In this document: piece by piece, positions 3,911 to 40,673 of the stretch
Numbering within the stretch: position 1 is the stretch's first letter
Layout: each line of letters opens with the position of its first letter
Source of the DNA: Halomarina oriensis
GTDB lineage: Archaea > Halobacteriota > Halobacteria > Halobacteriales > Haloarculaceae
Assembly: GCF_009791395.1 (NCBI RefSeq)
Contig: NZ_WSZK01000033.1
Location: 1 to 40,673 of the forward strand
DNA: 40,673 nt
Reading direction: 5' to 3'
Position numbers and translations under genes: made by a program
Notes under the pieces: generated by a model
Told to the model about the DNA's origin: nothing
What the model saw: the letters and a program-made list of their open reading frames with translations, nothing else
Databases searched by the model: none

Positions 3911-3957
3911 ACAGATTCGGTATCGCGTGATATGGTTTAAACAAATTACAGGTGGGT

Positions 3958-4055
3958 GAATATCTGCGCCTTGAGGCCTGTATCGGCGTTGAGGGCCGGT
4001 TCAGATATTCCGGGATGCCACTATGTTGTAAAGACACACAACCAAGTAGATATTT
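3958..4055 (+). promoter_or_regulatory. Integrase promoter with AT-rich inverted repeat
   Basis: GAATATCTG (3958-3966) and CAGATATTC (4002-4010) are perfect inverted halves. A third related site, AGATATTTCCGG, starts at 4048 and contains the likely TATA box, 35 bases before the integrase ATG at 4087. The CAGATATTCCGG and AGATATTTCCGG similarity suggests repeated binding sites, perhaps arm sites of the recombinase or sites for its regulator. Confidence 0.35.
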
Positions 4056-4086
4056 CCGGGGCCTCGCCCTCGGGTCGTCGTACGAG

Positions 4087-15525: not shown

Positions 15526-15557
15526 TGGTTAGGTCTGTGTAGAACGTGGTTAGGTCT
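15526..15557 (-). promoter_or_regulatory. Two CTAACCA elements before the ATPase start
   Basis: TGGTTAGGTCT occurs at 15526-15536 and 15547-15557, exactly 21 bases apart. On the mRNA strand this reads AGACCTAACCA, the nearer copy running into the ATG. The same CTAACC-ATG context precedes three other genes of the array. Confidence 0.5.
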
Positions 15558-18533: not shown

Positions 18534-18562
18534 GGGTTAGGTTCTGGTCTCTGGGTTCGGTC

Positions 18563-20302: not shown

Positions 20303-20318
20303 GGATGGATTGTGTCGG

Positions 20319-20618
20319 TCAGCGAGTCGGTTCGGCCGGTGTCGAGGCCGGCGAGGTGGTCGCATAGTCTCGGAGTTCGTCGAACTCCTGGCAGAGGCCC
20401 GGCGGTGGGTCAGGCACCCGGACCGGGTACGTGTCGGGGCCGAGCGCCTCGATCGGCAGGACGAGCAGGCCGCCGTTCGGCAGAGCGTGTGCGACACACG
20501 CCGTGTCGTCGCCGATTGGATGGTCGATGAGACGCGAGTCGTTGACGAACTCGCTCCCGAGATACGCGTTCAGACCACGCCCGTTCTGGCGGAGTGTGAG
20601 TCGCGTGAAGTCGGTCAT
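20319..20618 (-). CDS. 99-residue soluble protein of the cluster
   Basis: Small beta-rich acidic protein (LRQNGRGLNAYLGSEFVNDS, ACVAHALPNGGLLVLPIEAL) with a Pro/Thr-rich tail. No motif recognised. Unlike its neighbours it has a 115-base leader region upstream that holds two TATA-like boxes, so it may open a second transcript covering the ATPase and MCM-like genes. Confidence 0.55.
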   Translation of the reverse strand: MTDFTRLTLRQNGRGLNAYLGSEFVNDSRLIDHPIGDDTACVAHALPNGGLLVLPIEALGPDTYPVRVPDPPPGLCQEFDELRDYATTSPASTPAEPTR

Positions 20619-20660
20619 CGGTCGAGCCCTCTCGAAGCCGTCGAACGCCGACCAACCCAG

Positions 20661-20679
20661 ATTATACTCGGATTATAAC
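20661..20679 (-). promoter_or_regulatory. Internal promoter of the minus-strand array
   Basis: Reverse strand carries TATAATC and GTATAAT boxes about 10 bases apart, 46-56 bases before the ATG at 20618. This is the only clear TATA sequence in an intergenic gap between 24000 and 13100, so it probably adds transcription of the downstream ATPase half. Confidence 0.45.
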
Positions 20680-20733
20680 GCCGCGAACGACGGAACTGAC
20701 GGCTTGAACCCGTGTCTCGATGGTTGAACATGG

Positions 20734-21033
20734 TTACTTGTCACCCCAGTTCGACGCGGTGGCACGGAGGTCCGTCCCGCCGGCCTGTTTCGCGTTCGAG
20801 CTGTTGCCGAGCGCGAGGAAGACACTCCACGTCGCGATGGCCATGCCGATGACCATCAGCGGAAGGATGCCCGTGATGAGCATGATGCCGCCGACGAGGA
20901 TGCCCGAGAGGTTCTGCATCGTCGCGCTGAGCGCCCCGGCTCGTCGAGCGTGGCCCGGCGACCGGCGGAACAACAGGAGGCCGATAGCGAGACACACGAC
21001 AAACAGCCCGCCGATGATGAGCAGCTGGCTCAT
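20734..21033 (-). CDS. Small membrane protein
   Basis: 99 residues from ATG 21033, which overlaps the upstream stop (ATGA). Two long hydrophobic segments: 3-20 (LLIIGGLFVVCLAIGLLLF) and 43-75 (ILVGGIMLITGILPLMVIGM onward). The basic loop between them, RRSPGHARR, is probably cytosolic. Its small size and position recall VirB2/B3-like subunits of secretion systems, but there is no sequence evidence for homology. Confidence 0.6.
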   Translation of the reverse strand: MSQLLIIGGLFVVCLAIGLLLFRRSPGHARRAGALSATMQNLSGILVGGIMLITGILPLMVIGMAIATWSVFLALGNSSNAKQAGGTDLRATASNWGDK

Positions 21034-21308
21034 CGCCGGCCCCACTGGTCGTTCGAGCCGCCCTTGTTCTGCTTCCGGTTCGACCCGCCGATGACGTCCT
21101 GGATGTCCGTCCGACGTGACTTCGCGCCCATGTGGCGGTTCTCCCACGCCCTCGTCCCCGTCCGGACTGCGAACCGGCCACCGAGGAGGCTCGCGACCAC
21201 GGCGACCGCCAGCGCAGCGGCGATGTAGAAGCCCGCACCCGCAATGATGGCGGGGAGAAACGCGATTGCCGCGAGCCCGACGACGACGCGCAGGTAGGTG
21301 TCGCTCAT
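21030..21308 (-). CDS. Small membrane protein with basic tail
   Basis: 92 residues. Hydrophobic N-terminal half (VVVGLAAIAFLPAIIAGAGF, AALAVAVVASLL) making two membrane helices, then a strongly basic, Asn/Gln-rich tail (NRKQNKGGSNDQWGRR). The ATG directly follows the upstream TAG. The basic tail could contact nucleic acid or the acidic partners. Function unknown. Confidence 0.6.
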   Translation of the reverse strand: MSDTYLRVVVGLAAIAFLPAIIAGAGFYIAAALAVAVVASLLGGRFAVRTGTRAWENRHMGAKSRRTDIQDVIGGSNRKQNKGGSNDQWGRR

Positions 21309-22250
21309 CTACCGGCCCTCCTCGAGGAGCGTGGTGTCGATCGCGAGCGCTCCGAACAGGTCACCGATACCACCGAAGAACCCACCGAGGTCGCCGAAGC
21401 CAGCCCTGTAGCCGGCCAGCTGGTGGTCGAACTTGTCGCCGTGGTCGGGGTTGGCGACGAACTTGACCGAGACGTTCGACTGGGTGAACGTGAACTGGAC
21501 GGTCTCGTCGCCCGGTTCACGGTAGAACGCCGGGTCGTCGACATCCTTCGAGATGGGCCGCCAGTCGTCCTCACCGACGCGGTAGTAGCCGAGCCACTCC
21601 TCGACGGTGCGGCCATCGGTGTCGTTCGTGAGCGAGACAGTGATCGTCTTCGTGCTCTCGCTCTCCGGCGAGAACTCGTAGCTTCGTTGTTCCAGGTCAT
21701 CGTGAAAGAGGTCGTTCCAGAACTGCTGTGCCCCGTCGAAGAGGCCCGAACCGGTTTCCTTCGCCTTCGCCGCCCACGAGAGCGTCTCGATACGCGCCGA
21801 GCTCGGGGCGAACGTCACGCTCTCGTGTGCCCCGAGCGTGAACTCGACGCTCGTGTACGTCTCGTTGCCCTCGAAGTCGGCCATCGCCCGCCACATCGCC
21901 GTCTGGTTGCCGTTCGACGCGCCGACCTCGCCCACCTCGGAGGGGGCGACGACGCGCTCGGAGAGCTCGATGACGAACCGAACGCAGTAGCCGTTCGGGT
22001 TCTCGCCCTTGACGCGGACGAACCCAGGCGCTTGCTCGACCGTCACACGGGTGTTGTCCCGCACGGACGCGGCCGAGACGTTCGCCGCTGCGCGGATGGT
22101 CGACTCGTCCGTCCGGAACGCGTCGTGAACGACCCGCGTCTCGCAGGTCGTCTCGGCGCTGGCTGTCGGGGTCGCGCCGATCGGGGCGACGCCGGCGACG
22201 GTAGCGACCAGGAGACAGGCAACAAGCAGTGTCTGGACCACTCGATTCAT
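21309..22250 (-). CDS. Secreted beta-rich protein with amphipathic C-terminus
   Basis: 313 residues from ATG 22250 (ATGA overlap with the upstream stop). Signal peptide at 1-32 (TLLVACLLVATVAGVAPIGA). The body is beta-rich with several N-x-S/T sequons (NVSA, NQTA, NETY, NDTD, NVSV). A Gly/Phe-rich amphipathic stretch near the end (GDLGGFFGGIGDLFGALAI) could insert in or lie on a membrane. Probably an exported, cell-surface part of the apparatus. The frame is open to 22493, but that extension overlaps the neighbouring gene. Confidence 0.6.
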   Translation of the reverse strand: MNRVVQTLLVACLLVATVAGVAPIGATPTASAETTCETRVVHDAFRTDESTIRAAANVSAASVRDNTRVTVEQAPGFVRVKGENPNGYCVRFVIELSERVVAPSEVGEVGASNGNQTAMWRAMADFEGNETYTSVEFTLGAHESVTFAPSSARIETLSWAAKAKETGSGLFDGAQQFWNDLFHDDLEQRSYEFSPESESTKTITVSLTNDTDGRTVEEWLGYYRVGEDDWRPISKDVDDPAFYREPGDETVQFTFTQSNVSVKFVANPDHGDKFDHQLAGYRAGFGDLGGFFGGIGDLFGALAIDTTLLEEGR

Positions 22251-22589
22251 CGGCGAAGCCTCCCGAAGACACCCGTGGCGGTCTCCGTCGTCTCGTCGTA
22301 GGCTTCCTCGCCTGCCTCGCCGCTGTAAAGCGCCCGTGCAGCACCCTTGAACCGGCCCGTCGGCAGGACGATTTTCAGCATGACCGAGAGAGCGACACCC
22401 GCCAGCAACGCCACGAGCAGTGGCGTGGTCTCGACGAGTGTCAGCGCGAGGAGGCCAAGCATGATGCAGAAGAACAGTCCTTTCCCGAGCCACCCGGCGG
22501 CGGTCCGAGCCGACGGGATGGCTCCACGAGGCGAGTTGGGGAGCGAGCGACCACCGGCGTTTCTAACCAAGCGTCTGATATCAGGCATG
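22247..22589 (-). CDS. Small membrane protein
   Basis: 113 residues from ATG 22589. Basic N-terminus, two adjacent hydrophobic segments near 35-75 (LGKGLFFCIMLGLLALTLV, LLVALLAGVALSVML), and a polar tail rich in Glu and Thr. The ATG follows a CTAACC element. A GTG at 22603 (118 residues) overlaps the upstream stop as GTGACTGA and is a real alternative. No family recognised. Confidence 0.6.
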
Positions 22590-22595
22590 GTTAGG

Positions 22596-23147
22596 TCAGT
22601 CACGCTCCCAGAGCGGCACGTCGTAGTCGTTCTTGATGGGCAGGCGGCCGGTCACCCGTTGCCACGTCTTGTTCACGCCCGGGTTGAGGCGAGCGAGAGC
22701 GACGAGCATGAGCGCAACACACGCGCCCGCGAGGACGAGCGTCGTCCCCAGCGAGATGACGCCGAGGAAGACGAACGTGATGGCCAGGCCGGACGCGGCG
22801 TAGAACATCCGGTCCCGTGAGGTGTCGCGGATTCCCAGCGCTGCGGGGACGGCGTCGACGTAGAACTGGATGTTGTCAGCGAGCGCTGGCGGCATCGCGC
22901 GGTCGAAGCCGAAGCCGCCGACGAACGACCGGGCGTTGCGGGCGGTCGGGCCGAGCGACCCGAGAACGGCGTAGACGACCGTGAGCGGAAGCAGGACGAG
23001 TGTCTGTGCCGTCCGCAGGAGAAACACGGTGACGTCGACGAGTGTCTCGCCACCCAGACGAGCCGTTCGTCGGGTCGCCGATTCCCAGCGTGACTTCGCC
23101 GCCTCACGGTGGTGCGTGGACTTCTCGCGGCGTTTGTCTCCCCACAT
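22596..23147 (-). CDS. Membrane protein with basic N-terminus
   Basis: 183 residues. A Lys/Arg-rich first 30 residues is followed by a membrane segment near 38-60 (VFLLRTAQTLVLLPLTVVYA) and a hydrophobic hairpin near 118-155 (AITFVFLGVISLGTTLVLAG onward). ATG 23147 shares one base with the upstream stop (TGATG). The positive-inside rule puts the N-terminus in the cytosol. Probably a structural part of the membrane complex; no homology recognised. Confidence 0.6.
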   Translation of the reverse strand: MWGDKRREKSTHHREAAKSRWESATRRTARLGGETLVDVTVFLLRTAQTLVLLPLTVVYAVLGSLGPTARNARSFVGGFGFDRAMPPALADNIQFYVDAVPAALGIRDTSRDRMFYAASGLAITFVFLGVISLGTTLVLAGACVALMLVALARLNPGVNKTWQRVTGRLPIKNDYDVPLWERD

Positions 23148-23887
23148 CACTCAGCCTCCGAGTCCGATTCGAGGAAGTCGAAGGTACCGTAGACGAACCC
23201 GTTGTACTGCGCACCCTTCCGAGCCGCATAGGTGCGTTCGGGCGTCTCGTTGGCCTCGACGTACTCGTCGGTGAACGCCTCCAGGTCGTCGGGGAGTTCC
23301 TCGGTCGCCAGGCCGGTGAGGACGATCTCTTCGTCGACGACCCGCTCGGTCGCACTCGGTTGCTGGACCTCGAAGTTCTCATAGACGAGCTGACCGTCAC
23401 GTTCGACGACGTCGGCCGTCGCGATGACGGATGTCTCGTTCTCACCCAGCCGGCAGGTGATGCGGAGGACGTCACGCGACTCGCTGGCTGTGATGCGGTC
23501 GTTGACGTACGTCGTGTAGGCCGCGCTATGCTGGTTCAGCTCGTGGTGAATGTCCTCGGCACACTCCGCGTCCGTTCGGACGGGCTCGTGCCACGGCGTG
23601 CCTTCGGAGAACGTCTCGTACCAACCGCGCTTGAGCGCTGCGTGCGTCTCGGTCAACCAGGCGGTGGCACTGTCGGTGAACGATTCGAGGCTCTCGACCG
23701 GATGCGTCACGCGGTGGGTGACGCTGGCGAGAAGCCCCCGCTCAACGTCTTCCTCGGGGGCGCTCCCAAGCAGGGCGTCGGAGATGTCGGAGTCCGCACT
23801 TCCCGCGGTCGCGGTCGTGACCCCGACAGTCGAGGTCACCACCAACACCGTGGCGAGAAGCGCGAACGCTCGCTGTGTGGATATCAT
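23147..23887 (-). CDS. Secreted protein of the cluster
   Basis: 246 residues. Signal peptide at 1-28 (AFALLATVLVVTSTVGVTTA). The mature part is helical then beta-rich and strongly acidic, with one Cys pair (C-A-E-D and I-T-C-R) that could form a disulfide outside the cell. There is no membrane anchor after the signal. A 153-base gap separates it from the upstream secreted protein. Not recognised. Confidence 0.6.
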   Translation of the reverse strand: MISTQRAFALLATVLVVTSTVGVTTATAGSADSDISDALLGSAPEEDVERGLLASVTHRVTHPVESLESFTDSATAWLTETHAALKRGWYETFSEGTPWHEPVRTDAECAEDIHHELNQHSAAYTTYVNDRITASESRDVLRITCRLGENETSVIATADVVERDGQLVYENFEVQQPSATERVVDEEIVLTGLATEELPDDLEAFTDEYVEANETPERTYAARKGAQYNGFVYGTFDFLESDSEAE

Positions 23888-24040
23888 GGATGGGTTCGTG
23901 GGCTGTTCTGAAGGCGATACGGAGTGCCCGCGGTCGGCGTGAGCGACCTTGGCGGCGTGACCGCAACGGGCGAACCAAACCTCGGCCTCACAGGCGGAGG
24001 TCAGAGTGACAGACAGGTACGAGCGAACCGCTCGGCGCGG

Positions 24041-25027
24041 TTAGAACAGCGACGGGAACTCGAAGTCGAGACCGGCCGTCGACCAGAAGCCGAAGACGTC
24101 CATCTGCTTCCAGATGCCGACGTTCGTGTTGATGAAGACCTCGTCCATGGACTCGGCGTCCTCGAAGGACTCACCGTACTCGACGACGACCGAGTCGTTC
24201 GCGACGTCGTAGACTGCGTAGGTGTCCGTCTCGGTATCGACCTCGTCAGGAACTTCTTCGTTGTAGAGGTTCGCGACGACAGCCGTGTCGTCGTTCGTCA
24301 CGAGGATGGGCACGCGCTTGATGCGCTCGCCGTCGTCTTTCTCCTCGGCGGCCATCTCCAGACGGTCGGCGGCGTCGCCGTCGTAGAAGTACGTCGTGCT
24401 CGCGTTGGCGTCAGAGCCGTTCACGGTGACGTCCTCATCCGAGATGGTGGCGAAGTTGTCCGCCGTCCAGAAGTCGAAGCCGGCGATGGAGAAGCCGTCA
24501 GTACCAAGATCGACGAACTCCGAGGCGTTCCCGACCGTCCGGGCCGTCTGGGCACCGGGTGCCGTGTGGGTCAGCGTGAGCGTTGAGTTGTCGAAGACCG
24601 CACTGCTGTTCGACAGTTCGATGTCGACGGTCTCGTTGCCGACCTGGTTGATGATTTTGTTGTTGCCGGTCTCGACAGCGACGATGTCCGTCGCGGCGAC
24701 CGCCTGCGTCGTGTCGAGCGTGACGGTCATCGTCGAGGTACCGGTGTTCTTCACTGACGCGATGTCGGCATCGACACCGGCGATGGAGACGTTGACGTCA
24801 GCTGCGTTAACGCGCTGGACGTCGGACTGCTCGTAGTCGATGACGACTTTCTTCAGGTCGCCCGCTGCGGAGGCGTTGATGTCGTAGGCGTGGTTCGTCG
24901 CCGTCAGTGCGGCGGTGCTATCCTGGGTCGCAGTGGTGGTCGCTGCACCGGCCATCCCACCCGTCATGATGACGGCGAGAACGGCCAGCGCGGCTACGAT
25001 ACGTGTGCTGAAGCTGTTGCTGAACAT
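24041..25027 (-). CDS. Secreted acidic surface protein (S-layer-like character)
   Basis: 328 residues. Sec signal at 1-30 (IVAALAVLAVIMTGGMAGAA) and a Thr/Ala/Asp/Val-rich mature chain with at least seven N-x-S/T sequons and no Cys, the makeup of haloarchaeal surface glycoproteins. The tail is aromatic (GIWKQMDVFGFWS, FEFPSLF) instead of a membrane anchor, so it may self-assemble or bind a partner. Gaps of about 150 bases on both sides suggest its own promoter; a TATCACC sequence near 25063 is the best candidate. Possible roles are pilus or particle coat subunit. No family named. Confidence 0.6.
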   Translation of the reverse strand: MFSNSFSTRIVAALAVLAVIMTGGMAGAATTTATQDSTAALTATNHAYDINASAAGDLKKVVIDYEQSDVQRVNAADVNVSIAGVDADIASVKNTGTSTMTVTLDTTQAVAATDIVAVETGNNKIINQVGNETVDIELSNSSAVFDNSTLTLTHTAPGAQTARTVGNASEFVDLGTDGFSIAGFDFWTADNFATISDEDVTVNGSDANASTTYFYDGDAADRLEMAAEEKDDGERIKRVPILVTNDDTAVVANLYNEEVPDEVDTETDTYAVYDVANDSVVVEYGESFEDAESMDEVFINTNVGIWKQMDVFGFWSTAGLDFEFPSLF

Positions 25028-25177
25028 GTGAATCTTTAGTGGAAACGAAGGGGTTGATCTGTCGGTGATACATCGGAAACGCGGTGTCTCAGCGGTGTAG
25101 AGGCGGTGGGACGCACGGTGGCGGCCACCGGGTCCAGCGTTGGGGTGGCGGTCGATCCTCTCTGGTCAGGCCGGCCA

Positions 25178-25948
25178 TCAGAACCAGCCCCACGGGTCGA
25201 GCGAGATGTCCGCGTTCCCGGCGTCGTCGAGGCCGAACCACGACCAGAGCTTGATGAGACTCGTCTGGTTCGAGCCCTCCTTCCACCAGCTCGGCCGCGC
25301 GTGCATCACGGCCGGATCGGCGATGGCGTCCTGGTGGATGGACGTCCAGCCGTCGTCGTACCACTCCTCCAGCGCGGTCGTGCCGTCGGTGAGCTCGATG
25401 AGGTCGCCCTCCTCGCGCGTGAGCGTGTAGTGATGGTGTGGGTTGAACGGGTAGAGCAGTGGCCGGCCCTCGCTGTCGGCCTGCCACGCCGCGGCCGTCG
25501 CCCGGAACCAGTGGTAGCCCGCGTAGTCGACGCGGAGGACGTCACCGAACTGGCCGTCGTCCTGGCGAACCGTCACCAGCACGGGCTCGTGGTCGCCCCA
25601 GTGAGAGTCCGAGAATAGACCGTACCCGCTGAACCAGCCCGTCTGCCGACGGTACTTCGTCCAGTACGAGAGGACTGCGTAGGGCTGGTCGGCGTACTCG
25701 GCGACGTACGACGCCATCTCGATGGGCTTCTGTTCGAGGTGGCCCGTCGCGAGCCGAGGCTGGTAGCGCCGTAGCAAATCCTCGTCGTAGTAGGTCGAGA
25801 CGTACTCGGGGACGCCACCGAACAGCGTGCCCGCCGCAGCGCTGGTCGAGGTCGTGCGTGCCGCCGACCCGAGCATCGTGCTCACGGTGACGGTCCGGAG
25901 GAAGCGACGGCGAGTGACACCGCTGGCGCTGGAGTGTGTTTCTGTCAT
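25178..25948 (-). CDS. Tat-exported protein of unknown function
   Basis: 256 residues. Twin-arginine signal RRRFLRTV at about 13-20 followed by a short hydrophobic stretch and AAAG, so it is exported folded. The mature part is rich in Trp, Tyr and His (GYGLFSDSHWGDHEPV, FNPHHHYTL, ARPSWWKEGSNQTS), which could form a metal-binding or hydrolase-like site. I do not recognise the family. The start follows a CTAACC element 22 bases after the protease gene. Co-export with the subtilisin suggests linked roles at the cell surface. Confidence 0.6.
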   Translation of the reverse strand: MTETHSSASGVTRRRFLRTVTVSTMLGSAARTTSTSAAAGTLFGGVPEYVSTYYDEDLLRRYQPRLATGHLEQKPIEMASYVAEYADQPYAVLSYWTKYRRQTGWFSGYGLFSDSHWGDHEPVLVTVRQDDGQFGDVLRVDYAGYHWFRATAAAWQADSEGRPLLYPFNPHHHYTLTREEGDLIELTDGTTALEEWYDDGWTSIHQDAIADPAVMHARPSWWKEGSNQTSLIKLWSWFGLDDAGNADISLDPWGWF

Positions 25949-25970
25949 GGTTAGGTTTCTGAGTTCGTGG

Positions 25971-27584
25971 TTAGACCCGCCACTTCGCCCAGCCGAACAG
26001 CTTGCGAGTGCCGTGCCAGTTGCCGCTCAGCCCGCGATTGTACGCATCACGCCCGTCGGCGGCGTCGTTCTGGACCGCTATCTGTGCCTTCTCACTCGGT
26101 TGGTTCTCGAGCGCCCGCTCGAGGTGGACGAGCCCACCGGGGCCGACCTCGGTCTCGCCGGCTCCCTTCAGGCGGGTGCCGGTCGTCACGAGTCGGTCGC
26201 GGACCTGCTTCGCGTTCAGCGATGGGTCCTCAGCGCGAAGGATACCCGCGTAGGCGGCCACCGTCGGCGTCGCCATCGACGTACCCGAGAGTGTCACAGC
26301 GCCGTCCGGTGTGGGCGCTGTCGTATTCATCCCCGGGGCAGCGATATCGGGCATCGCACCCTTCGTCCGTGCGCCGGAGAAGTCACCGAGGCCGCTGTCG
26401 GGACCGACACACGAGAAGTAGGCGCTCTCGGCGGCGACTGCGCCGCCCATCTCCTCGGTGGGAGCGTTCGTCGCCGTCACTGTCAGAACACCCGACGCCC
26501 GGAGGTCGCCCGGTGAGCCGATCCACCGCGTCGACTGGCGAGAGTTGCCCGCCGCGATGGTGAAGACGACGTCCTCCTTGTCGATGGCGTCCTCGATGAG
26601 GTCCGCCTGCTGCTCGGCGTAGATCGAACTGCCCAGCGACATGGAGACGACATCCGCGTTCTGCTCGATAGCCCACTCGATACCGTTCGAGACCGAAACC
26701 GTCGAGCCGCTGCCGTCGTCGCTCAGGACCTTGGCGATGAGGAGGTCTGCACCGGGTGCGTGGTCGTGGATACAGCCCGCACACCAGTCACCGTGGCCGT
26801 TCCCGTCTTCGATAGGGGTGTAGTCCCCACCGGCGGGGTCGGCCTCGGTATCCTCGACCGCGTTGTAGCCGGCGACGACCGAGTCGCCGTACTGCGCGTT
26901 GTCGTAGGTGAGACCAGTGTCGAGGATGGCGATGCGTGCGCCGGTGCCGTCGGGTTGGCCGCTACCACCGGTGAGCTCACGGACGCGTTGCATGTCCGCC
27001 TCCGGAGCGTTGGCGTTGTAGGCCACGCCCTCCGTCGTCCACTCGCCGTTATCGCCGAACCAGCCCCACGCACTCGAGAAGCCACCGGCCCACCAGCCGC
27101 CGGGAGCCTCCACGGCGTCTGCGGCGAGGTGTTGACTCGGTAGGAGCGGCTCGACGATCTCGACGCCGAGGTCGAAGTCGACGTGTTCGACGACGCTGAT
27201 GTCCTGGAGCTTGTCGTCGCGGTCCCACCACCCCTGGAGGACGTCGAGCATGGGGGCGGCGACTGTCGCCCGACCCGTGTCGCCGTCTCCGGCGACCGAC
27301 TCTTTCACCGAGAGAAGCTCGCGTCCGTCGATGTCGCGGACCCACTTCTCGATGTCTTGGGTCCCGTCACCGCGGTTGTCGAACCGCACCGAGAAGATGG
27401 GGTTGCCCATCTCCGAGCGCCGCACCGTCTCGGGGAGGTTCAGGTCGAACCACCCGTCGGTCCCGCGAATCGCCGGCGAGAGCGCACCATTGTCCGCCCG
27501 CGCCGGTCGAGGACCAGCGGCGAGGGTTGCGGCCGTCGCGCCCGCACCCGCGAGGAACCCACGGCGAGAGACGCTGTCGGTCAT
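25971..27584 (-). CDS. Tat-exported subtilisin-like serine protease
   Basis: 537 residues. Tat signal SRRGFLAGAGAT at 6-17, a long N-terminal region to about 200 (propeptide-like), then the S8 catalytic domain with the full triad: D222 (AILDTGL), H264 (GNGHGDW), S436 (SGTSMATP) and the oxyanion N347 (AAGNS). Folded export through Tat is the rule for haloarchaeal halolysins. Here the protease lies inside the gene array, overlapping the surface-protein stop (ATGA), so it may mature or release the secreted partners, or open the S-layer during transfer; this is inference. The tail after 490 lacks the usual pre-peptidase C-terminal domain. Confidence 0.9.
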   Translation of the reverse strand: MTDSVSRRGFLAGAGATAATLAAGPRPARADNGALSPAIRGTDGWFDLNLPETVRRSEMGNPIFSVRFDNRGDGTQDIEKWVRDIDGRELLSVKESVAGDGDTGRATVAAPMLDVLQGWWDRDDKLQDISVVEHVDFDLGVEIVEPLLPSQHLAADAVEAPGGWWAGGFSSAWGWFGDNGEWTTEGVAYNANAPEADMQRVRELTGGSGQPDGTGARIAILDTGLTYDNAQYGDSVVAGYNAVEDTEADPAGGDYTPIEDGNGHGDWCAGCIHDHAPGADLLIAKVLSDDGSGSTVSVSNGIEWAIEQNADVVSMSLGSSIYAEQQADLIEDAIDKEDVVFTIAAGNSRQSTRWIGSPGDLRASGVLTVTATNAPTEEMGGAVAAESAYFSCVGPDSGLGDFSGARTKGAMPDIAAPGMNTTAPTPDGAVTLSGTSMATPTVAAYAGILRAEDPSLNAKQVRDRLVTTGTRLKGAGETEVGPGGLVHLERALENQPSEKAQIAVQNDAADGRDAYNRGLSGNWHGTRKLFGWAKWRV

Positions 27585-30500
27585 CGCAGGTCACCTCGGC
27601 GGCGTCCGACCAGCGGAACCAGCAGGCCAGCGAACACGCCCTCCGTCGGTGTGACGGTCAGCGGCAGGAGGCCGGTGATGGACCCCAGCGAGATGTTCGG
27701 CGTGATACCTGCCAGCCAATGCGTGAACCGGTCCAGGAAGCCGGGGTCGTTGTTCACCTGGACGGTGAGCGTCCCGTCGTCATCGGTCTCGGTCGTGATG
27801 GACGTCCCCGAGTTGGTCTCGGTGACCTGGCCGTAGCCGTTCGAGCCGGGCATGCGCAGGACCTCTCCGTCGCCGCGGTAGAGCAGTGCGTTCTCGGCGA
27901 GCGTCCCCGTGTGAACGACGACGCCGACCGACTCGTTCAGCGCTTCCTCGGTCGGGCCCTCGACGACCGAGAGCGAGACCGTGTGGTCCGGGGCGACCGA
28001 GAGGCCACTAAGGTAGACGTGGACCTGGCTCGGAACGTCGCCTGTCGGCGTGACCGCGGTGATGTCGATGTCCTGGTCTCCCTCGCTCAGTTCGAGCGAG
28101 CCGCGTTCTAGACCACCACCGACGGCGAGGTGTCGTCCGGTCGGACCGGAAACGGCCATCACACGCGCCACATCGGGCTGGTCGGTGTCGGTAGCCTTCA
28201 GCCGGTAGGTCTGGGAGAACTCCGTGTTCTCCGTGTTCGTCCACGTCGCACGGATGTGGTAGTACCCAGAGCCGTTCGTAGCGAACTGAGCGGTCTTTCC
28301 ATCGAGCGTCGTCTGGAGCTCCGTGGCGTCGGGTGCGTGGATCGTAACGTTCTGCAGGTCGTTGAACACGGCCGGGTCCTCAGGCGTCAGCTCCATCGTG
28401 ACGATTTCGTCCGGGCCGGGTTCGAGCGTCGAGAAGCGAGTCGACGCCAGCGAAGGCGTCTCGCCCCCGAACGCCGGGTTACTTGCACGCGTGTTCGCAC
28501 TCCCGAGGTCGGTCTCGGTGGCGACATCGTAGCGAAGTTCGACACCCGGCGCGTTGCCGATTGGGTAGTCCTCAACGGAGACACGCGTCTCGGTCGTCTC
28601 CAGCCCGAAGTTCGGCGACTGGTCGAACGAGAGGTACTCCGCGGGCACGGGTGCCGTCGTCCCGTTGGCGAAGTGGGCGGTCACCATCACCTGGTCGGGG
28701 TCGAGCGGGCGGGTGAACGTCGCCCCGCCGTTGAACAGTCCGTCCTCGTCGATGTCGGCGACTGGATCCTGGGCTTCGATGCTGCCCTGGAGTTCCGTGA
28801 TGGCCTGCTGGAGCGACTCGATGCGCTCGCGCTGCTCGGCGTTGTCCAGCCCGGAGATGTTGACGTTGACTTGTGGGTTCTCGATACCTGTCCGGTTCTC
28901 CAAGATAGCGCGGTAACGGTCTCGGAGTTGTTCGTTCGAGTCCGAGAGGTTCTGCATCTGGCCGTGGAGTTCGTCAAGGCGCTCATCAGACGTCTCGTTC
29001 AAGAGTTGCTGCATCGCGGACGGGAGGTCACCGAACGAGCCGTTCTGCAGGTTCGAGAGCCACACCTCGAATTGCTCGTTGACCTCACCGTAGCGCCCAC
29101 AGAAGTCTGGGGAGCGGGCCTCGACCATCGTCAGTTCGACAGACGAGTTGGGGTTCTGGGGCACCTGCACGCGCTCAACCTCCGTCGGCGAGTAAAAGGA
29201 CGAGCGGAGGTTGACTTGCTCGCACATCGCGCTGAAGTTCTGGTAGTTCAGCGTCGACGGGTCGACACCGCTCGGAACGCTCGACTCCGGAACCTTGAAC
29301 GCGTAGACGCCCACGGTCTTGAGGTTCTCGTCGGCGATGTCGAAGCTGAAGCTCCCGTTGGCGTTCGTCGTCGTGGTGACGCGGGTGAACACGCCGTTAT
29401 CGAGGTACTCCTGGACCTGCTGGGACTGCTGGCTGAGCTGGCCGTCCAGCGTCGGGAGGTCCGGCGAGATGAACGACGAGGCGTCGCCCACGCGAATCAT
29501 GTACGACGTCCCAGTTTCGCCGTCGACTCGGGGAGTCACCTTGTAGTGGCCCGCCGGAAGCGTGTACGTCGCGTACTGCAGCGTGTCGGGGTCGAGGAAC
29601 GTCGATCCACTCGATTTGTTCAACTCCAGTTCGACAGGCCCGTTGATACCCTCGTTCGAGGGGCCGACCTGCTCGATGACCACGGTCGCTTCGGAGAGGG
29701 AGGTCCCGGGCAGTTGGCGGTCCCACTCACTGGTCTGGATACCGAACGTGCCGGTGTTCGTGGGGTCCCACACGGTGAAGATAGCTGGTTCGCCCTCGCC
29801 GAGGACGACCTGCGGCTCTGAGATGTCACCCTTGTCCAGCACGGCAGGGGCGGTGTTGATGCCCGTCTGGGAGACTGCGACGTAGTTCGCGTCTGCCGAG
29901 GAGAACAGGCCGTCGTCCTCGACGAGGCTGAAGCCATCATCCATCTGCGTCCGCCAGTCACTCGGCACCTTATCGGCAACCGACTGCAGCGTCTGCCGAG
30001 CGTTCGAGGTCGTGTCGGCGACCGAACCGCGGTTGACCTCCGGATGGGAGTAGTCCACCGCGTAGCCGACGACCTGTGCGCCAGACACGGGGGAGCCGTC
30101 TGTCGTCTTTACGACCCCGGAGATGTCGCCAGTCTGAGACTGTGAGAAAGAACCAATAGTGTGTTTGGTAGCCGCACGGACCACCGAAGCCGAGGGATGG
30201 GGTTGATATTCGTTCAGAACACTGCCGCTGGCCCCCGAATCCTCTATCTCAACGACGTTTCCGTTATCCAATCCAATCCAGAAACCAGACGAATCGGACC
30301 TCAGCGCGATCTCAGTATATTGGTTTGCCTCGCCGGGGAGGGATACCTGCCAAACCTGATCCCCCGTTTCAGCATCTATCTTTCTCGAAGTGCCATCATA
30401 CGAACCTGTGTAAACATAGTCTCCAGATTTGTCGGTCCAAACTGCCGAAACTGTTGTCGTATGACCACTAAACGACCACTTTTGACTCCCGTTCGATGCA

Positions 30501-31177
30501 TTTAGCGCCCGGACCGTGCCATCCTGCGAAGCGGTGTAAACAGTCGAACCGTCTGGCGAGGGAGATACCGAGTCTACATATCCGGTGTGTCCAGTGAACG
30601 ACCACAGTTCACTCCCGTCCGAGGCATCCAGCGCCTTTACCGTTTGGTCAGCAGAAGCAGTGTATACGACCGACCCATCAGGGGACGGAGCAACGGACAT
30701 GACATTGCTCGTATGTCCAGTGAACGACCACAGTTCACTCCCATTAGATGCGTCCAGCGCCCTCGCCGTAGCATCTTTAGACCCTGTGAAGACGGTCGAA
30801 CCATCGGGGGAGGTAGTAACAGATGAAATGGTACTCGTATGTCCAGTGAACGACCACAGTTCACTCCCGTCTGAAGCATCCAGCGCCTTTACCGTGTCGT
30901 CGGAGGACCCCGAGAATACTGTCGAACCATCGGGAGAAGCGGCAAGGCCGAGTATAGGAGCCGAATGACCAGTGAATGACCACAGTTCACTCCCGTCTGA
31001 AGCATCCAGCGCCTTTACCGCGCTTTCGGAAGATGTGAACAAGACCCCTCCGTCGGCAGATTGTATATTGCTGGTCGAAGCCTGTGCCCCTGCTGGCACG
31101 AACGCCACAACCCCGCCAGTAATTATTAACAAAGCAAGAACGCACGACGCGACTCGGGAGTCTATCAGCCGACTCAT
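27581..31177 (-). CDS. Giant secreted WD40/PQQ-propeller plus fibre surface protein
   Basis: 1198 residues from ATG 31177. Signal peptide at 1-33 (VASCVLALLIITGGVVAFVP). A beta-propeller at about 45-330 is built of 42-residue repeats such as VKALDASDGSELWSFTGHT. Next comes a carboxypeptidase-regulatory-like domain near 345-400, a long beta-rich region with sequons, a coiled coil near 735-845 (RLDELHGQMQNLSDSNEQLR), more beta domains, and a hydrophobic C-terminus ending in VGRRRGDLR that looks like a membrane anchor. It should stand on the outer surface. The propeller part is lower in GC than the rest. It opens the minus-strand array. A bait or adhesion role in cell contact, or a coat role, is inferred. 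Confidence 0.7.
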   Translation of the reverse strand: MSRLIDSRVASCVLALLIITGGVVAFVPAGAQASTSNIQSADGGVLFTSSESAVKALDASDGSELWSFTGHSAPILGLAASPDGSTVFSGSSDDTVKALDASDGSELWSFTGHTSTISSVTTSPDGSTVFTGSKDATARALDASNGSELWSFTGHTSNVMSVAPSPDGSVVYTASADQTVKALDASDGSELWSFTGHTGYVDSVSPSPDGSTVYTASQDGTVRALNASNGSQKWSFSGHTTTVSAVWTDKSGDYVYTGSYDGTSRKIDAETGDQVWQVSLPGEANQYTEIALRSDSSGFWIGLDNGNVVEIEDSGASGSVLNEYQPHPSASVVRAATKHTIGSFSQSQTGDISGVVKTTDGSPVSGAQVVGYAVDYSHPEVNRGSVADTTSNARQTLQSVADKVPSDWRTQMDDGFSLVEDDGLFSSADANYVAVSQTGINTAPAVLDKGDISEPQVVLGEGEPAIFTVWDPTNTGTFGIQTSEWDRQLPGTSLSEATVVIEQVGPSNEGINGPVELELNKSSGSTFLDPDTLQYATYTLPAGHYKVTPRVDGETGTSYMIRVGDASSFISPDLPTLDGQLSQQSQQVQEYLDNGVFTRVTTTTNANGSFSFDIADENLKTVGVYAFKVPESSVPSGVDPSTLNYQNFSAMCEQVNLRSSFYSPTEVERVQVPQNPNSSVELTMVEARSPDFCGRYGEVNEQFEVWLSNLQNGSFGDLPSAMQQLLNETSDERLDELHGQMQNLSDSNEQLRDRYRAILENRTGIENPQVNVNISGLDNAEQRERIESLQQAITELQGSIEAQDPVADIDEDGLFNGGATFTRPLDPDQVMVTAHFANGTTAPVPAEYLSFDQSPNFGLETTETRVSVEDYPIGNAPGVELRYDVATETDLGSANTRASNPAFGGETPSLASTRFSTLEPGPDEIVTMELTPEDPAVFNDLQNVTIHAPDATELQTTLDGKTAQFATNGSGYYHIRATWTNTENTEFSQTYRLKATDTDQPDVARVMAVSGPTGRHLAVGGGLERGSLELSEGDQDIDITAVTPTGDVPSQVHVYLSGLSVAPDHTVSLSVVEGPTEEALNESVGVVVHTGTLAENALLYRGDGEVLRMPGSNGYGQVTETNSGTSITTETDDDGTLTVQVNNDPGFLDRFTHWLAGITPNISLGSITGLLPLTVTPTEGVFAGLLVPLVGRRRGDLR
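30591..31001 (-). repeat. 126-bp tandem repeats encoding propeller blades
   Basis: The same sequence block (CCAGTGAACGACCACAGTTC and following) begins at 30591, 30717, 30843 and 30969, exactly 126 bases apart, with a decayed copy at 30465. DNA identity is much higher than protein conservation needs, so copies were recently exchanged or amplified. Confidence 0.8.
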
Positions 31178-31236
31178 GGCCGGCCCCCGACGGGCGATGC
31201 TACTCGGAGATTGTTCTGGGATTGCATGATGTTGAG

Positions 31237-31280
31237 GCCAGCACTCGGAATCGAACCGAGGCGAGACACCAGTCACTGGC
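31237..31280 (-). other. tRNA 3'-end-like fragment, candidate attachment site
   Basis: On the reverse strand the T-arm CTCGG-TTCGATT-CCGAG is perfect and has a canonical TTCRA loop. It is followed at once by TGCTGGC, an acceptor-strand-like heptamer. GCCAGTG at the other end can pair with that heptamer (two wobbles), but the D and anticodon arms are missing. Tyrosine integrases of archaeal elements commonly recombine in tRNA 3' halves, so this may be attP. The tRNA species is not identifiable from this piece. Confidence 0.4.
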
Positions 31281-36025: not shown

Positions 36026-37030
36026 ATGATTACCGACGCACGCGTTCTGCAGGCGGATTTTACCCCGCGGGACGTCCGCCACCGCGACTCGGAGGTCGAT
36101 GCCCTCACGACGGTGCTCGACCCGCTCGTCCAGGGCGACTACGCCGACCCAGCCATCCTGTACGGCCCATCGGGTGCGGGCAAGACCTGCATCGCCAACT
36201 ACACTGTCGAGCAACTTCGCCAAGCCGTCCTCGATGTCGACTACCAGTACGTGAATTGCTGGCAGAACTACTCGGGCTATCGGACGCTCTATCGTATCCT
36301 GGAGGGCCTTGGCAAGACAGTCGACGTCCACCGGCGCTCGACTCCGCTCGACGAACTGCTCGAACGCCTCCAGAACTACGACGGGCCACCGGTCGTCGTC
36401 ATCCTCGACGAGGCCGACCAGCTCGAACACCAGCAGACGCTGTATCACCTCAACAACCTCCCGAAGTTCGCTATCGTCCTCATCGCCAACGACGAAGCCG
36501 ATATCCTCTCGGGAGCCGACGATCGCGTCCGGAGTCGGTTCGTCGGTGCCGAGCGCATCAAGTTCTCGCGGTACTCGATGGCCGAACTCGTCGGGATTCT
36601 CGAAGACCGTGTCCGATGGGGCTTCCAACCGGATGTGGTGACCGAGTCGACGCTCGAACACATCGCTGACAAGGCAGCGGGTGACGCCCGCGCTGCGATT
36701 TCGATGCTTCGGAGTGCTGCTCGCCACGGCACTGAGGAAGGACTCGAACAGATCACGCCCGACCTCGTCGACGATACGGAATCCGACGCCCGAGAAGAGG
36801 TCCACCGCAAGAACGTCGATACGCTCACACCACACCAGCGAGCGCTATACGATTGTCTCCAGGTGAACGGTGAGATGGAACCTGCAGAGCTCTATCAGGC
36901 CTACCGCGAGCGCGTCGAGGACCCACGCGCCGACCGGACCATCCGGGACTACCTCCTCAAACTCGCTCGATACGACCTGATTCGCGTCGAAGGGACCAGC
37001 CGTGACCGGCGCTACGGGCCGGTGGAGTAA
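36026..37030 (+). CDS. orc1: Orc1/Cdc6 replication initiator
   Basis: 334 residues, short for the family (about 400). Walker A GPSGAGKT at 47-54, Walker B VVVILDEAD at 123-131, a sensor-1 region IVLIANDE near 150, arginine-rich sensor-2 region, and a C-terminal winged helix (LTPHQRALYDCLQVNGEMEP). It binds origin boxes near its own gene and loads the MCM helicase of the host. The ATG is 28 bases from a TTTTATTC box (35994-36001), so the mRNA is leaderless. Flanking repeats at 35949 and 37300 and the runs TATCGGAAAG/AATCGGAAACGGG near 35877 are candidate origin boxes. The gene faces the RadA-like/polB operon. Confidence 0.92.
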   Translation: MITDARVLQADFTPRDVRHRDSEVDALTTVLDPLVQGDYADPAILYGPSGAGKTCIANYTVEQLRQAVLDVDYQYVNCWQNYSGYRTLYRILEGLGKTVDVHRRSTPLDELLERLQNYDGPPVVVILDEADQLEHQQTLYHLNNLPKFAIVLIANDEADILSGADDRVRSRFVGAERIKFSRYSMAELVGILEDRVRWGFQPDVVTESTLEHIADKAAGDARAAISMLRSAARHGTEEGLEQITPDLVDDTESDAREEVHRKNVDTLTPHQRALYDCLQVNGEMEPAELYQAYRERVEDPRADRTIRDYLLKLARYDLIRVEGTSRDRRYGPVE

Positions 37031-37373
37031 CGCTACTCGGGGGCGGTCCGCTCCAAGTGCCCATATCTGACCAGTACTGGACAACGTTGTCTAATGAGAC
37101 AAAAAGCGTCAATAGAATACCTTGTGTGAAGTATGATACAGGGTGTCAGAGGCCCCTGTTGTTGCGAACGAATTCGGTGGTGTTCGGGAAACCATCGCAG
37201 TCGGCGGCCTGTCTACTCGACTTCTGGCGAGAATAGCGGTCTTCTGGCGGACAGTTTCACCGAGGTGGAAACCGAGTGCGGGCGCAGTGGCGACCCCCCA
37301 CCATGCTATGCTTTCTGGCACTTCTGGCACCGACTCGGGTCGCGTTATCTGTCAGTCGATGCTGAGTATCAGT
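37031..37373. other. Candidate replication origin region with CTTCTGGC repeats
   Basis: 343 bases between orc1 and the next gene. CTTCTGGC occurs near 37218, 37239 and 37321 and TTTCTGGC near 37311. GTTTCACC and GGTGGAAAC flank 37255-37273. The 29-bp repeat lies at 37300-37328. Non-coding: upstream starts for the next gene would cross these repeats. Confidence 0.5.
37300..37328 (+). repeat. 29-bp repeat before the RadA-like gene
   Basis: Second copy of the 35949-35977 repeat, 27 of 29 bases identical. It ends 45 bases before ATG 37374, almost the same distance as before orc1 (48), so it may bind the same factor at both promoters. Confidence 0.6.
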
Positions 37374-38093
37374 ATGCATCGTACGCACTCGACGGTCGCA
37401 CAGGAGACCGGCGCTGGAACGCCGGCTCTTCCCACGCTCCGGCCGGGCGTCCGCTTGCTGGAGGCGGGCAACCCATCGGCGACGGCCCGGCAGCACCACG
37501 CCGCTTCGACGACGATCGTGCAGACGCTCGTCCTCGACCACCTGTTACTGAACGGTGGGGAGATTCAGTGGGTCGACGCCGGTGGCCATGCGACGACCCA
37601 TCCGCTGGCGCGACTCGCACCGAGCAAGCGAAGTCTGGAGCGCATCGCTGTGGGCCGGGCGTTCACGCCCTACCAGCACCTTCGACTCCTCGAAGAGGTG
37701 GCCCAGCGCGTCGATGACGACACGTCACTCGTCGTGTGTCCCGCCCTCGACCTGCCCTACCGGGACGACGACTGCTCGCGGGATGCCGACCGACTTCTCC
37801 TGCGAGCGCTGGCGACCGTCGCCGGTGTCGCCCGTCAGTACGACGTTCCAGTGTTGGTGACCAGAGCCGGCGTCGACGAGTTCACCGAACCCATCGCCGA
37901 AGCCAGCGACGAGCGTATCGAGTACCAGGAGACCCGCCACGGCCCGCGCTTCGCCGGCGAGGAGTTCGAGACACTCGTCTATCCAGCGGGCCATGGCCTC
38001 GTCCAGACGACGCTCGCGTTCTGGCGACAGACCATCGAAGCTCGTCGACCGCTGTACGATGACGCCGAGATCGGACTGCTCGCGAGGGCCTGA
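37374..38093 (+). CDS. RadA/RecA-like protein with degenerate P-loop
   Basis: 239 residues from ATG 37374, 27 bases after a GTTAT box; ATG 37359 and an open frame to 37143 are possible but would overlap the repeats. The fold signature follows RecA/RadA: LEAGNPSATARQHH where the Walker A loop should be, IQWVDAGGHATTHPLARLA, SLVVCPALDLPYRDDD, and RALATVAGVARQYDVPVLVT. The Walker A lysine and serine are missing, so ATP binding is doubtful. The gene precedes a small protein and polB, an order seen in other haloarchaeal plasmids. It may help the polymerase at single-stranded DNA. Role inferred. Confidence 0.6.
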   Translation: MHRTHSTVAQETGAGTPALPTLRPGVRLLEAGNPSATARQHHAASTTIVQTLVLDHLLLNGGEIQWVDAGGHATTHPLARLAPSKRSLERIAVGRAFTPYQHLRLLEEVAQRVDDDTSLVVCPALDLPYRDDDCSRDADRLLLRALATVAGVARQYDVPVLVTRAGVDEFTEPIAEASDERIEYQETRHGPRFAGEEFETLVYPAGHGLVQTTLAFWRQTIEARRPLYDDAEIGLLARA

Positions 38094-38095
38094 AG

Positions 38096-38362
38096 ATGGG
38101 GCGAACAAATCTCACCTTCCGCGACCTGCTGCGCGGTGTTGAGGACCGGTGGGCGGACTTTCGCCGAGCGCTGCGTCGAGACGACCAGTTCGTCCTGGAC
38201 CGACTGTTCGAGTACGCTCACGAACACGCCGACGCGGGCAGTTACCTCAATCACCGCTCGCCGCTGATGCCGGTGTTCGTCAGTATCGACCTCGAACAGG
38301 AGAAGCGTATCGACGAACTGGAAGGTCGCCTCGACGATATCGAAGATGACCTGAATCGCTGA
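38096..38362 (+). CDS. Small helical protein between the RadA-like gene and polB
   Basis: 88 residues, two bases after the RadA-like stop. Basic helical N-terminus (LTFRDLLRGVEDRWADFRRAL), aromatic middle, and an acidic coiled-coil end (EKRIDELEGRLDDIEDDLNR). The next gene begins three bases later, so the three are cotranslated. No family name. Its place suggests a polymerase accessory or scaffold, which is inference. Confidence 0.6.
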   Translation: MGRTNLTFRDLLRGVEDRWADFRRALRRDDQFVLDRLFEYAHEHADAGSYLNHRSPLMPVFVSIDLEQEKRIDELEGRLDDIEDDLNR

Positions 38363-38365
38363 GTC

Positions 38366-40549
38366 GTGGTCTACAAAATCGACTACCGGGACGACTGCGT
38401 CTGGGAGTGGACGCTCACCGACGACGGGGCAACCGTCGAACGGAATCCAGAGTACACACCGACGCTCTACGCGACGACCGCGCCACCGCTCCCAGATGGG
38501 ACTCCCTCACAGGTTGGGCGGTTGACTCGACTCACTAAGCGCCTACGAAATCTACCGCACGTCGAAGCCGTTCGTACCGTCTCGAAGCGACCGGGCTTTC
38601 GCTATCCTGTACAGGAGGCGCTCGCCATCGACGTCTGTGACCTCACCGCTGTCGAAGAGGTCGCGTGGTTCGTCTCTCGATACGACCGACCGGGGCGATT
38701 CCGCCTGTTCAACGTCGACCTTCACCGCGAGTTCCGCTACTGTCTCGAAGAGGACATCCAGCCCGTGGCATCGAGAGCGCTTCGGACAGTCGAGATAGCG
38801 ATTCCATCCGAGCAGATGGCGAGTGGCGACCTTCAGCGGGTAGTGGTCGACGGGGAAGCGACGACCGGGACCGATTGGGACATCCTCGATGCGGTTCGAG
38901 ACCGCCTCAACGAACGCGATCCAGACGTGCTCGCGGTGAACACAGGCGACGTCGTGCCGGCGCTGTTCGACGTCGCCACCAGCCACGACGTCCCGCTGCG
39001 CCTCGGGCGAGCACCGGGGTACGACCAGCTCGCAGGAAAGTCGACCTACCAGTCATACGGTCGCGTCGGGCACTCACCCGCTCGGTACAACGTTCCCGGA
39101 CGGGTACTCATCGACACCTCGAACGCGTTCTTCTGGGACGAATCGAATCTCGACGGCATCCTCGACCTCGTCGAGCGCTCGGGGAAACCTCTGCAGGAGG
39201 TGGGGTGGGCCAGCATCGGGAACGTCCTGACGGCGATTCAGATTCGGGAGGCACTGTCGCGGAGCGTGCTCGTTCCCTGGAAGGCGTGGCGACCAGAGCG
39301 GTTCAAGACGATGCGACAACTCCACGCCGCTGACCGCGGTGGGACGACGCTCTCTCCGGAGGTGGGCCTCCACCGCGACGTTCACGAGCTCGACTTTGCG
39401 AGTCTCTATCCCAACATCATCTGTACGCGAAATCTCTCGCCCGAGACGGTTCGCTGTGACTGCCACCCCGATCGACGCGACCTCGATAGCCTGGACTACG
39501 CGGTGTGCCCCGACGATGGCTACCTACCCGACGTCCTCCAGCCGATCATCGACGACCGTGCGGCCATCAAGCGCCGGATTGCGGAGACCGACGACCCAGA
39601 CGAGCGAGCCGCTTTGGAGGGGCGCTCGTCGGCGTTGAAGTGGATTCTCGTCTCGTGTTTCGGCTACCAGGGGTTTGCGAACGCGAAGTTCGGGCGCATC
39701 GAGGTCCACGAAGCCATCAACGCCATTGCACGGGATATCCTGCTCTCGGCGAAAACGACGCTCGAAGCCGGTGGGTGGGAGGTCCTCCATGGCATCGTCG
39801 ACTCCCTCTGGGTGACGCCCAGCGCTGCGGACCCAACGTCGCTCGACGAGCTGGCCGCCGCGATTACTGCCGATGTCGGTATCGAACTGGAGTACGAGGG
39901 GGCGTTCGACTGGGTCGCGTTCGTCCCCCAACGCCACGCCGAGGCCGGTGCGCTCACGAAGTACTTCGGGAAGCGGACTGGCATCGACCGTACTGAGGAG
40001 AAGGCGTTCAAGTTCCGTGGTATCGAGTGTCGCCAGCGCTCGACCCCACCGTTCGTCGCTGCCGTCCAGCGGGACCTAATCAGAACACTTGACAAGCACC
40101 TCGCCGCCGGCAAGCCCGCCGACGAGGCACCTGCGGCCGTCTGCGACGGGCTGCGCGTCCATCTGTCTCGCCTTCGACGCGGGGACGTGCCAACCGACGC
40201 TCTGGCCATCGACCAGCGGATGTCGAAGGCCCGTGACGAGTATCACCACGAGACGCGCACCGTCTCCGCGCTCGCCAGAGCTTCCGACTACGGCCTCCCG
40301 GTGAGTTCCGGGCAGTCCATCCGGTACGTCGTCGTCAACGACGAACGACGTGGTCGGGAGCGTGTTCGACTCCTCGAGGAATGTTCGAGCGGTGAATACG
40401 ACACCGAGTTCTACGCCGACCTGGTAATCAGGGCGACGGCGAGCGTCCTCTCACCGCTCGGTTGGCGTAAGGAAGAGGTTCAGGGATGTCTTGATTCTTG
40501 GAAGAACCGACCGCTTGAGTCGTTCAGGGCGGGTCTCGAAAGTCGTTAG
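38366..40549 (+). CDS. polB: Family-B DNA polymerase (short, plasmid-type)
   Basis: 727 residues from GTG 38366. Palm motif A DFASLYPNII has D343, motif B KWILVSCFGYQG starts at K425, and motif C is HGIVDS with D479. The usual Y-G-D-T-D-S is reduced to one acid, but the retained Asp is the catalytic second one. The N-terminal half keeps the family layout, but the exonuclease acids (D-x-E) are not recognisable, so proofreading is doubtful. Length is about 100 residues below host PolB. No terminal-protein-priming insertions are obvious. With orc1 it would replicate the element. It is followed by 68 bases of non-coding sequence and the terminal palindrome. Confidence 0.9.
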   Translation: MVYKIDYRDDCVWEWTLTDDGATVERNPEYTPTLYATTAPPLPDGTPSQVGRLTRLTKRLRNLPHVEAVRTVSKRPGFRYPVQEALAIDVCDLTAVEEVAWFVSRYDRPGRFRLFNVDLHREFRYCLEEDIQPVASRALRTVEIAIPSEQMASGDLQRVVVDGEATTGTDWDILDAVRDRLNERDPDVLAVNTGDVVPALFDVATSHDVPLRLGRAPGYDQLAGKSTYQSYGRVGHSPARYNVPGRVLIDTSNAFFWDESNLDGILDLVERSGKPLQEVGWASIGNVLTAIQIREALSRSVLVPWKAWRPERFKTMRQLHAADRGGTTLSPEVGLHRDVHELDFASLYPNIICTRNLSPETVRCDCHPDRRDLDSLDYAVCPDDGYLPDVLQPIIDDRAAIKRRIAETDDPDERAALEGRSSALKWILVSCFGYQGFANAKFGRIEVHEAINAIARDILLSAKTTLEAGGWEVLHGIVDSLWVTPSAADPTSLDELAAAITADVGIELEYEGAFDWVAFVPQRHAEAGALTKYFGKRTGIDRTEEKAFKFRGIECRQRSTPPFVAAVQRDLIRTLDKHLAAGKPADEAPAAVCDGLRVHLSRLRRGDVPTDALAIDQRMSKARDEYHHETRTVSALARASDYGLPVSSGQSIRYVVVNDERRGRERVRLLEECSSGEYDTEFYADLVIRATASVLSPLGWRKEEVQGCLDSWKNRPLESFRAGLESR

Positions 40550-40617
40550 TTCGATATCGACCGAGCGCCGGAGTGCCCGCGGGAGATAGAACGTCATCAC
40601 CGGTCAAATCGACAACT

Positions 40618-40673
40618 ACTTTGCCCACAGCTTACAACGGCGGGTACCCGCCGTTGTAAGCTGTGGGCAAAGT
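40618..40673. repeat. 56-bp perfect palindrome at the window end
   Basis: Each arm is 28 bases, opening ACTTTGCCCACAGCTTACAA, with the axis at GGGT|ACCC (40645/40646). The window stops inside the right arm, so the full length is unknown. Either a hairpin end or terminator, or a fold-back artefact of assembly. Confidence 0.8.

Follow-up and report, generated by a model that had tools for sequence, protein, structure and literature searches.

Does the perfect palindrome at the last base of a Halomarina oriensis contig mark the end of a linear DNA molecule, or the place where an assembly broke off? The window, meaning the whole 40,673-nucleotide stretch of DNA that was analyzed, is the entire contig C27 of a draft assembly of 50 contigs and 4.07 Mb. 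Thus, the palindrome is cut by the end of the contig and not by the choice of window. The original prediction offered two readings, a hairpin end and a fold-back artefact. The evidence described here suggests that the palindrome is probably an assembly break and not the end of a linear molecule. It also brings in a possibility absent from that prediction, which fits at least as well as the artefact: the palindrome may be real and finite, and the assembly graph may break at it.

The palindrome and its rarity

The right end of the window holds the following features:
38366 to 40549, plus strand: type B DNA polymerase gene polB (PF00136; NF004418, 978.7 bits against a cut-off of 692)
40550 to 40617, no strand: 68-base stretch from the polB stop to the palindrome (from the sequence)
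40618 to 40673, no strand: perfect palindrome at the contig tip (from the sequence, the tip survey, and the hairpin energy)

The palindrome is 56 bases long, with two arms of 28 bases and no spacer, and the window and the contig both stop at its final base. Recomputation finds it exactly where it had been reported. Its arms, described as identical, match perfectly over 28 bases but are, more precisely, reverse complements of each other. The chance of such a match, calculated by hand from the base counts of the window, is about 0.267^28 per axis and about 4e-12 for the window, and the palindrome is far beyond chance. The next-longest spacerless palindrome within the window has 16 bases. As single-stranded DNA, the 56 bases fold with -34.9 kcal/mol (z -13.5). 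Near the axis lies a short GGGTACCC core, itself a short natural palindrome. The two window ends share neither a direct overlap of 9–300 bases nor an inverted repeat of 6–300 bases. A circular junction from position 40673 to base 1, proposed as a check in the original prediction, is likewise absent within the contig, a result to be expected if contig C25 separates the two ends.

The arm is unique in its own genome, where it is present only as the palindrome’s own pair, and no other contig carries it with up to three mismatches. A 22-base piece of the arm had no match with up to two mismatches in 194 other genomes, and a 23-base piece had none among viral contigs. A 20-base piece gave one match in a genome contig collection from which the H. 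oriensis genome itself may be missing; this match, in a Butyrivibrio MAG, is taken as chance. Positions 40540–40673 gave only short matches to plasmid and phage sequences (best E about 1). A transposon end or mobile repeat was rejected because the arm is unique in the genome and the pieces of it that were searched are absent from the 194 others and the viral contigs. A conserved palindrome 3′ of polB was also rejected, since 19 relative loci lack hairpin arms longer than 11 bases; these loci extended no more than 1,500 bases beyond the match, and the match often stopped inside polB.

Perfect spacerless palindromes longer than 32 bases (arms longer than 16) were absent from about 1.5 Mb, comprising 709,633 bases of the same genome outside the window (374,393 + 335,240) and 787,750 bases of relatives (387,750 + 400,000). 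This survey yielded one imperfect hairpin, from a relative, with 28-base arms, 24 of 28 positions paired, and a loop of 8. In the compared stretches of five related plasmids (247,551 bases), the arms of perfect spacerless palindromes reach 15 bases at most. Elsewhere in the genome, contig C1 carries a 32-base perfect spacerless palindrome near its start (L136:299-330), and a tip of contig C14 ends about 20 bases short of this C1 palindrome.

Alternatively, the palindrome could mark the border of a far longer inverted repeat, or of a plasmid dimer in inverted orientation, with the assembly having captured no more than 28 bases of the second copy. Since the contig is cut at the palindrome, the sequence is also compatible with arms that exceed 28 bases. 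However, the related plasmids have no palindrome arms longer than 15 in the stretches compared. Positions 38600–40673, palindrome aside, have a single other match in the genome (C8, 73%, about 150 bases), a point of limited weight as a collapsed repeat would stay hidden. This explanation is considered improbable.

A pR1SE-like plasmid, probably in two contigs

The remaining features of the window are as follows:
1 to 828, plus strand: ParA-like gene, 3′ part, with single-base indels near the tip, overlapping the end of C25 (from the letters and relatives)
3952 to 5262, plus strand: integrase (tyrosine recombinase; PF00589, 26 bits, just below the cut-off of 27.1; annotated integrases of relatives)
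13105 to 31276, minus strand: pR1SE-like core block (nine tblastn matches)
27581 to 31276, minus strand: 1231-aa gene, first of the core block
25971 to 27584, minus strand: S8 peptidase gene of the core block
13105 to 15525, minus strand: 806-aa gene, last of the core block
36026 to 37030, plus strand: orc1/cdc6 replication initiator (TIGR02928, 186.3 bits against a cut-off of 181.3; Cdc6_lid)
37137 to 38359, plus strand: two open frames found 5′ of polB both here and in relatives (polB cassette)

Judged from its gene content, C27 is a pR1SE-like haloarchaeal plasmid (apHPV). With such plasmids (PMC10818511), it shares the gene order of the core block, an S8 peptidase, Cdc6-like, integrase, and ParA-like genes, and a size of about 50 kb. 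C27 carries the two core gene clusters in conserved order that mark this group, and nine matches along its core block (31276 down to 13105) follow the order of pR1SE 6665–27743. The core block together with C25 appears as an apHPV of about 51 kb spread over two contigs, with the polB cassette beside Cdc6. This cassette sets C27 apart from its pR1SE-like relatives. It is present in one of five compared, Halorussus vallis, over at most 50,000 bases of each (the first 50,000 for four of the five). The 1231-aa protein, which matches the first large pR1SE core gene, scores as WD40/PQQ beta-propeller repeats, and its gene shows a 126-base DNA period near 30588–30980. The ParA-like gene has no Pfam match, and its name comes from the letters and relatives. 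Viral contigs searched with polB, Cdc6, and the 806-aa protein and its alignment contained no relative.

According to the text of the apHPV survey, 23 of 41 contigs are circular, and in 16 plasmids the origin may lie at repeats, direct or palindromic and 25 bp or longer, that stand just before ORF6 or after ORF25 (PMC10818511). The C27 palindrome is unlike these repeats in lying 9.3 kb away from the ORF6-like gene. The same text gives plasmid-vesicle transfer as known for pR1SE only (PMC10818511). Halomarina is not named in the main text of that paper (PMC10818511).

The left tip of C27 and the end of C25 (10,855 bases) coincide along about 349 bases, where they differ by gaps only, with no substitutions; thus, C25 precedes C27. 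These gap-only differences resemble weakly covered tips with indel errors. In the genome as a whole, two ParA-like genes are divided over four tips (C25 end, C26 start, C27 start, and C31 start), and identity pairs C25 with C27 and C31 with C26. A further contig, C45 (84,824 bases), is probably a second circular replicon, as its start matches its end in opposing orientation (279 bases, 99.3%).

Gene order beyond the palindrome

The right-hand junction between C27 and C25 is absent from the assembly, and its likely form is suggested by related plasmids. All ten whose record topology was checked are circular. They come from four of 107 records matching polB [Halorussus vallis, Halorarius halobius, Halomarina sp. 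PSR21 (NZ_CP119993.1), and Haladaptatus salinisoli] and seven of 15 matching the core block [pR1SE (NZ_KX687704.1, 50,329 bp), Halomontanus rarus, pHTUR05, pHALXA03, Natronosalvus halobius, H. vallis again, and Natrinema thermotolerans CP031299.1].

The circular H. rarus record NZ_CP119801.1 has the annotated order ParA, integrase, core block, pilin, Cdc6, mostly plus-strand genes, and ParA. Its integrase, core block, and Cdc6 match C27 in tblastn, with Cdc6 corresponding to C27:36026-37027. After Cdc6 follow a match to C25:1195-1491 on the opposite (minus) strand (39%, 59 aa) and then one to C25:4278-5636 on the same (plus) strand (28%, 259 aa). The ParA correspondence with H. rarus is annotation-based; in tblastn, the C25 ParA-like fragment matches pR1SE but not H. 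rarus. The 385-aa protein encoded by C25:4278-5636 has relatives in six plasmid records, two of which carry the core block (NZ_CP119801.1 and CP031299.1). On its other strand, the circular CP031299.1 has an AAA ATPase gene, an opposite-strand regulator, the 385-aa relative, and a run of small genes, an arrangement taken from annotation. C25 has a similar run of small genes, then the ParA-like gene that continues on C27. A gene like the PadR-type genes of C25 adjoins polB in two of six relative stretches (G005 and G007).

The gene order in these two circular relatives, together with the ParA-like gene shared by C25 and C27, would place the start of C25 beyond the right end of C27. We infer that the two contigs would then close as a circle of about 51.2 kb plus a gap. 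If this order holds, polB (plus strand) and C25:49-753 (minus strand) converge on the gap. Outside the core, gene order in the pR1SE-like family is loose or shuffled, as far as these matches indicate. In Natronosalvus NZ_CP099999.1, the interval from integrase to core block holds a match to C25:6782-6988, and the one from Cdc6 to ParA holds a match to the C27 methylase. The HTH relative in NZ_CP144124.1 is upstream of Cdc6, i.e., on the other side. Among 145 genomes, the C25:52-753 protein occurs only in H. oriensis itself, G007, and G169, and in G007 it is on contig C14 and polB on contig C12 of that genome.

An unlikely hairpin telomere

If the plasmid were linear, at least in part of its population, a protelomerase-like enzyme, here an unrecognized archaeal resolvase, might have formed the palindrome as a covalently closed hairpin end. 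The TelN site of N15 provides the nearest likeness, since its palindromic core is also 56 bp (PMC12624138), though the length in C27 is set by the contig end. The C27 right tip also has no overlapping partner, and a linear plasmid opened exactly at the C27-C25 junction would show the same gene order as the circle.

Other features separate C27 from hairpin telomere sites. The telomere resolvase (protelomerase) family PF16684 has no match in the genome at E 0.001, although an unrelated enzyme is conceivable; the same search gave a match in one of 14 control genomes. A hairpin-ended replicon should have palindromes at both termini, and no second palindromic tip exists among the 98 readable tips of the assembly, including the free end of C25. 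The polymerase belongs to the cellular type B families (PF00136 and NCBIfam type B), with no protein-primed polymerase family listed. A circular form is indicated by the relatives, which are circular, by their gene order, which supplies C25 as the neighbor past the palindrome, and by the overlap of C25 with C27. Among the 12 of 123 papers listed for haloarchaeal linear plasmids and hairpin telomeres, none mentions haloarchaea, which is not proof of absence. Both the linear plasmid and its hairpin end are thus held to be highly improbable, and the palindrome is very unlikely to be a telomere. Of the two readings first offered, the hairpin end is not supported, given the circular relatives, the C25 neighbor, the single palindrome, and the missing PF16684, and the artefact keeps a real though lesser chance.

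Finite palindrome or fold-back artefact

The survey of contig tips took in 400 bases at each end of the 50 contigs; both tips of C46 read N, which leaves 98 readable. Only the C27 right tip ends in a palindrome of at least 10 bases at 90% or more. Many tips in this draft are plain assembly breaks: 47 of 98 match another tip in opposing orientation yet remain unmerged, and 51 have no partner. Exact sharing between tips amounts to 22 bases in five pairs, 49 in one, and 79 in one. A de Bruijn artefact at k = 55 (56 = 55 + 1) was rejected, as no tip pair shares 55 bases. The right tip of C9 (L064) ends in 21 bases that repeat, in inverted form, a near-palindromic element lying 211 bases farther in. 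This tip was not counted as a fold-back habit of the assembly because the element is itself near-palindromic and looks natural; at 16,660 control positions inside tips, inverted matches of 20–24 bases occurred three times.

Two explanations carry most of the weight. The preferred one, to which we give an even chance, is that the right end of C27 is a contig break in a circular pR1SE-like plasmid of about 51 kb and that the palindrome is real and finite. The plasmid would consist of C27 and C25, with the C25 end overlapping the C27 start and the C25 start a short gap past the C27 end, and the palindrome would lie where the 3′ ends of polB and of a C25 gene converge. A k-mer walk entering it would read the second arm from the k-mers of the first, meet a two-way fork (onward, or back along its own strand), and stop at the palindrome’s far edge. 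The palindrome may have originated by a template switch at the GGGTACCC core, and its role would be at most a hairpin between two converging transcripts.

The competing explanation is a fold-back in library preparation or assembly at the short GGGTACCC palindrome. In that case the first arm would have been copied to give the second, and the true sequence would continue from about 40645–40650 toward C25. It is a serious possibility, if a somewhat doubtful one. Human capture libraries are reported to contain palindromic chimeric reads that arise in library preparation (PMC10908179), and fold-back reads are described in long-read data (PMC12870357). C27 resembles such chimeric reads in that its weak contig tip has inverted arms flanking a short palindromic core; its palindrome is seen at the level of the assembly. 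The poor tips of this draft, with the indel-only differences between C25 and C27 and the unmerged overlaps, also suit this explanation, as does the lack of a comparable palindrome in the 1.5 Mb surveyed. Conversely, a palindromic tip occurs only once among the readable tips and in none of 50 tips of unrelated viral contigs, a small comparison drawn from the 25 of 85 loci present whole and from other assemblers. Additionally, the palindrome lies outside the polB frame, where an artefact need not be.

A toy walk separates the explanations further. It used k = 23 and random DNA with 40 runs per case, and it lacked rules that real assemblers apply. A finite 56-base palindrome halted the walk at a two-way fork and left a terminal palindrome in all 40 runs, of exactly 56 bases in 26 and of 58–64 bases in the other 14, where the flanks matched by chance. 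A true hairpin end left at most 6 bases (40/40), which also argues against a telomere. Fold-back reads left at most 10 bases among normal coverage (40/40) and at most 2 at a coverage gap (40/40), so that neither setting produced a long terminal palindrome in 80 runs. The hairpin and gap dead ends are taken as walks that ran back along the template. This result favors the finite palindrome, and the five 22-base tip sharings are as expected at k-mer forks.

Several observations weigh against the finite palindrome. A fork should leave an arm on a second contig, and no contig carries one; the arm piece from the other side would have to be short and dropped, and its absence suits a fold-back. Two tip pairs share 49 and 79 bases instead of 22. 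The arms are perfect despite indel errors at the other C27 tip, which fits a walk-back copy equally well or better. The placement of C25 beyond the C27 right end comes from gene order alone, in an assembly where about half of the tips are partnerless. The missing second arm contig, the perfect arms, and the lack of a parallel are the reasons why the artefact retains substantial though lesser credence. Overall, the finite palindrome is slightly favored.

Implications

A replicon end here, if true, would be striking, since it would be a hairpin telomere on an archaeal plasmid. On present evidence, the palindrome should not be counted among archaeal telomeres, and it is an ordinary feature whether it is a finite palindrome or a fold-back. 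A short perfect palindrome at a contig tip calls for caution because a simple k-mer walk that meets a finite palindrome ends in just this way. The gain is instead a pR1SE-like plasmid of about 51 kb that would lie in two contigs of the H. oriensis draft.
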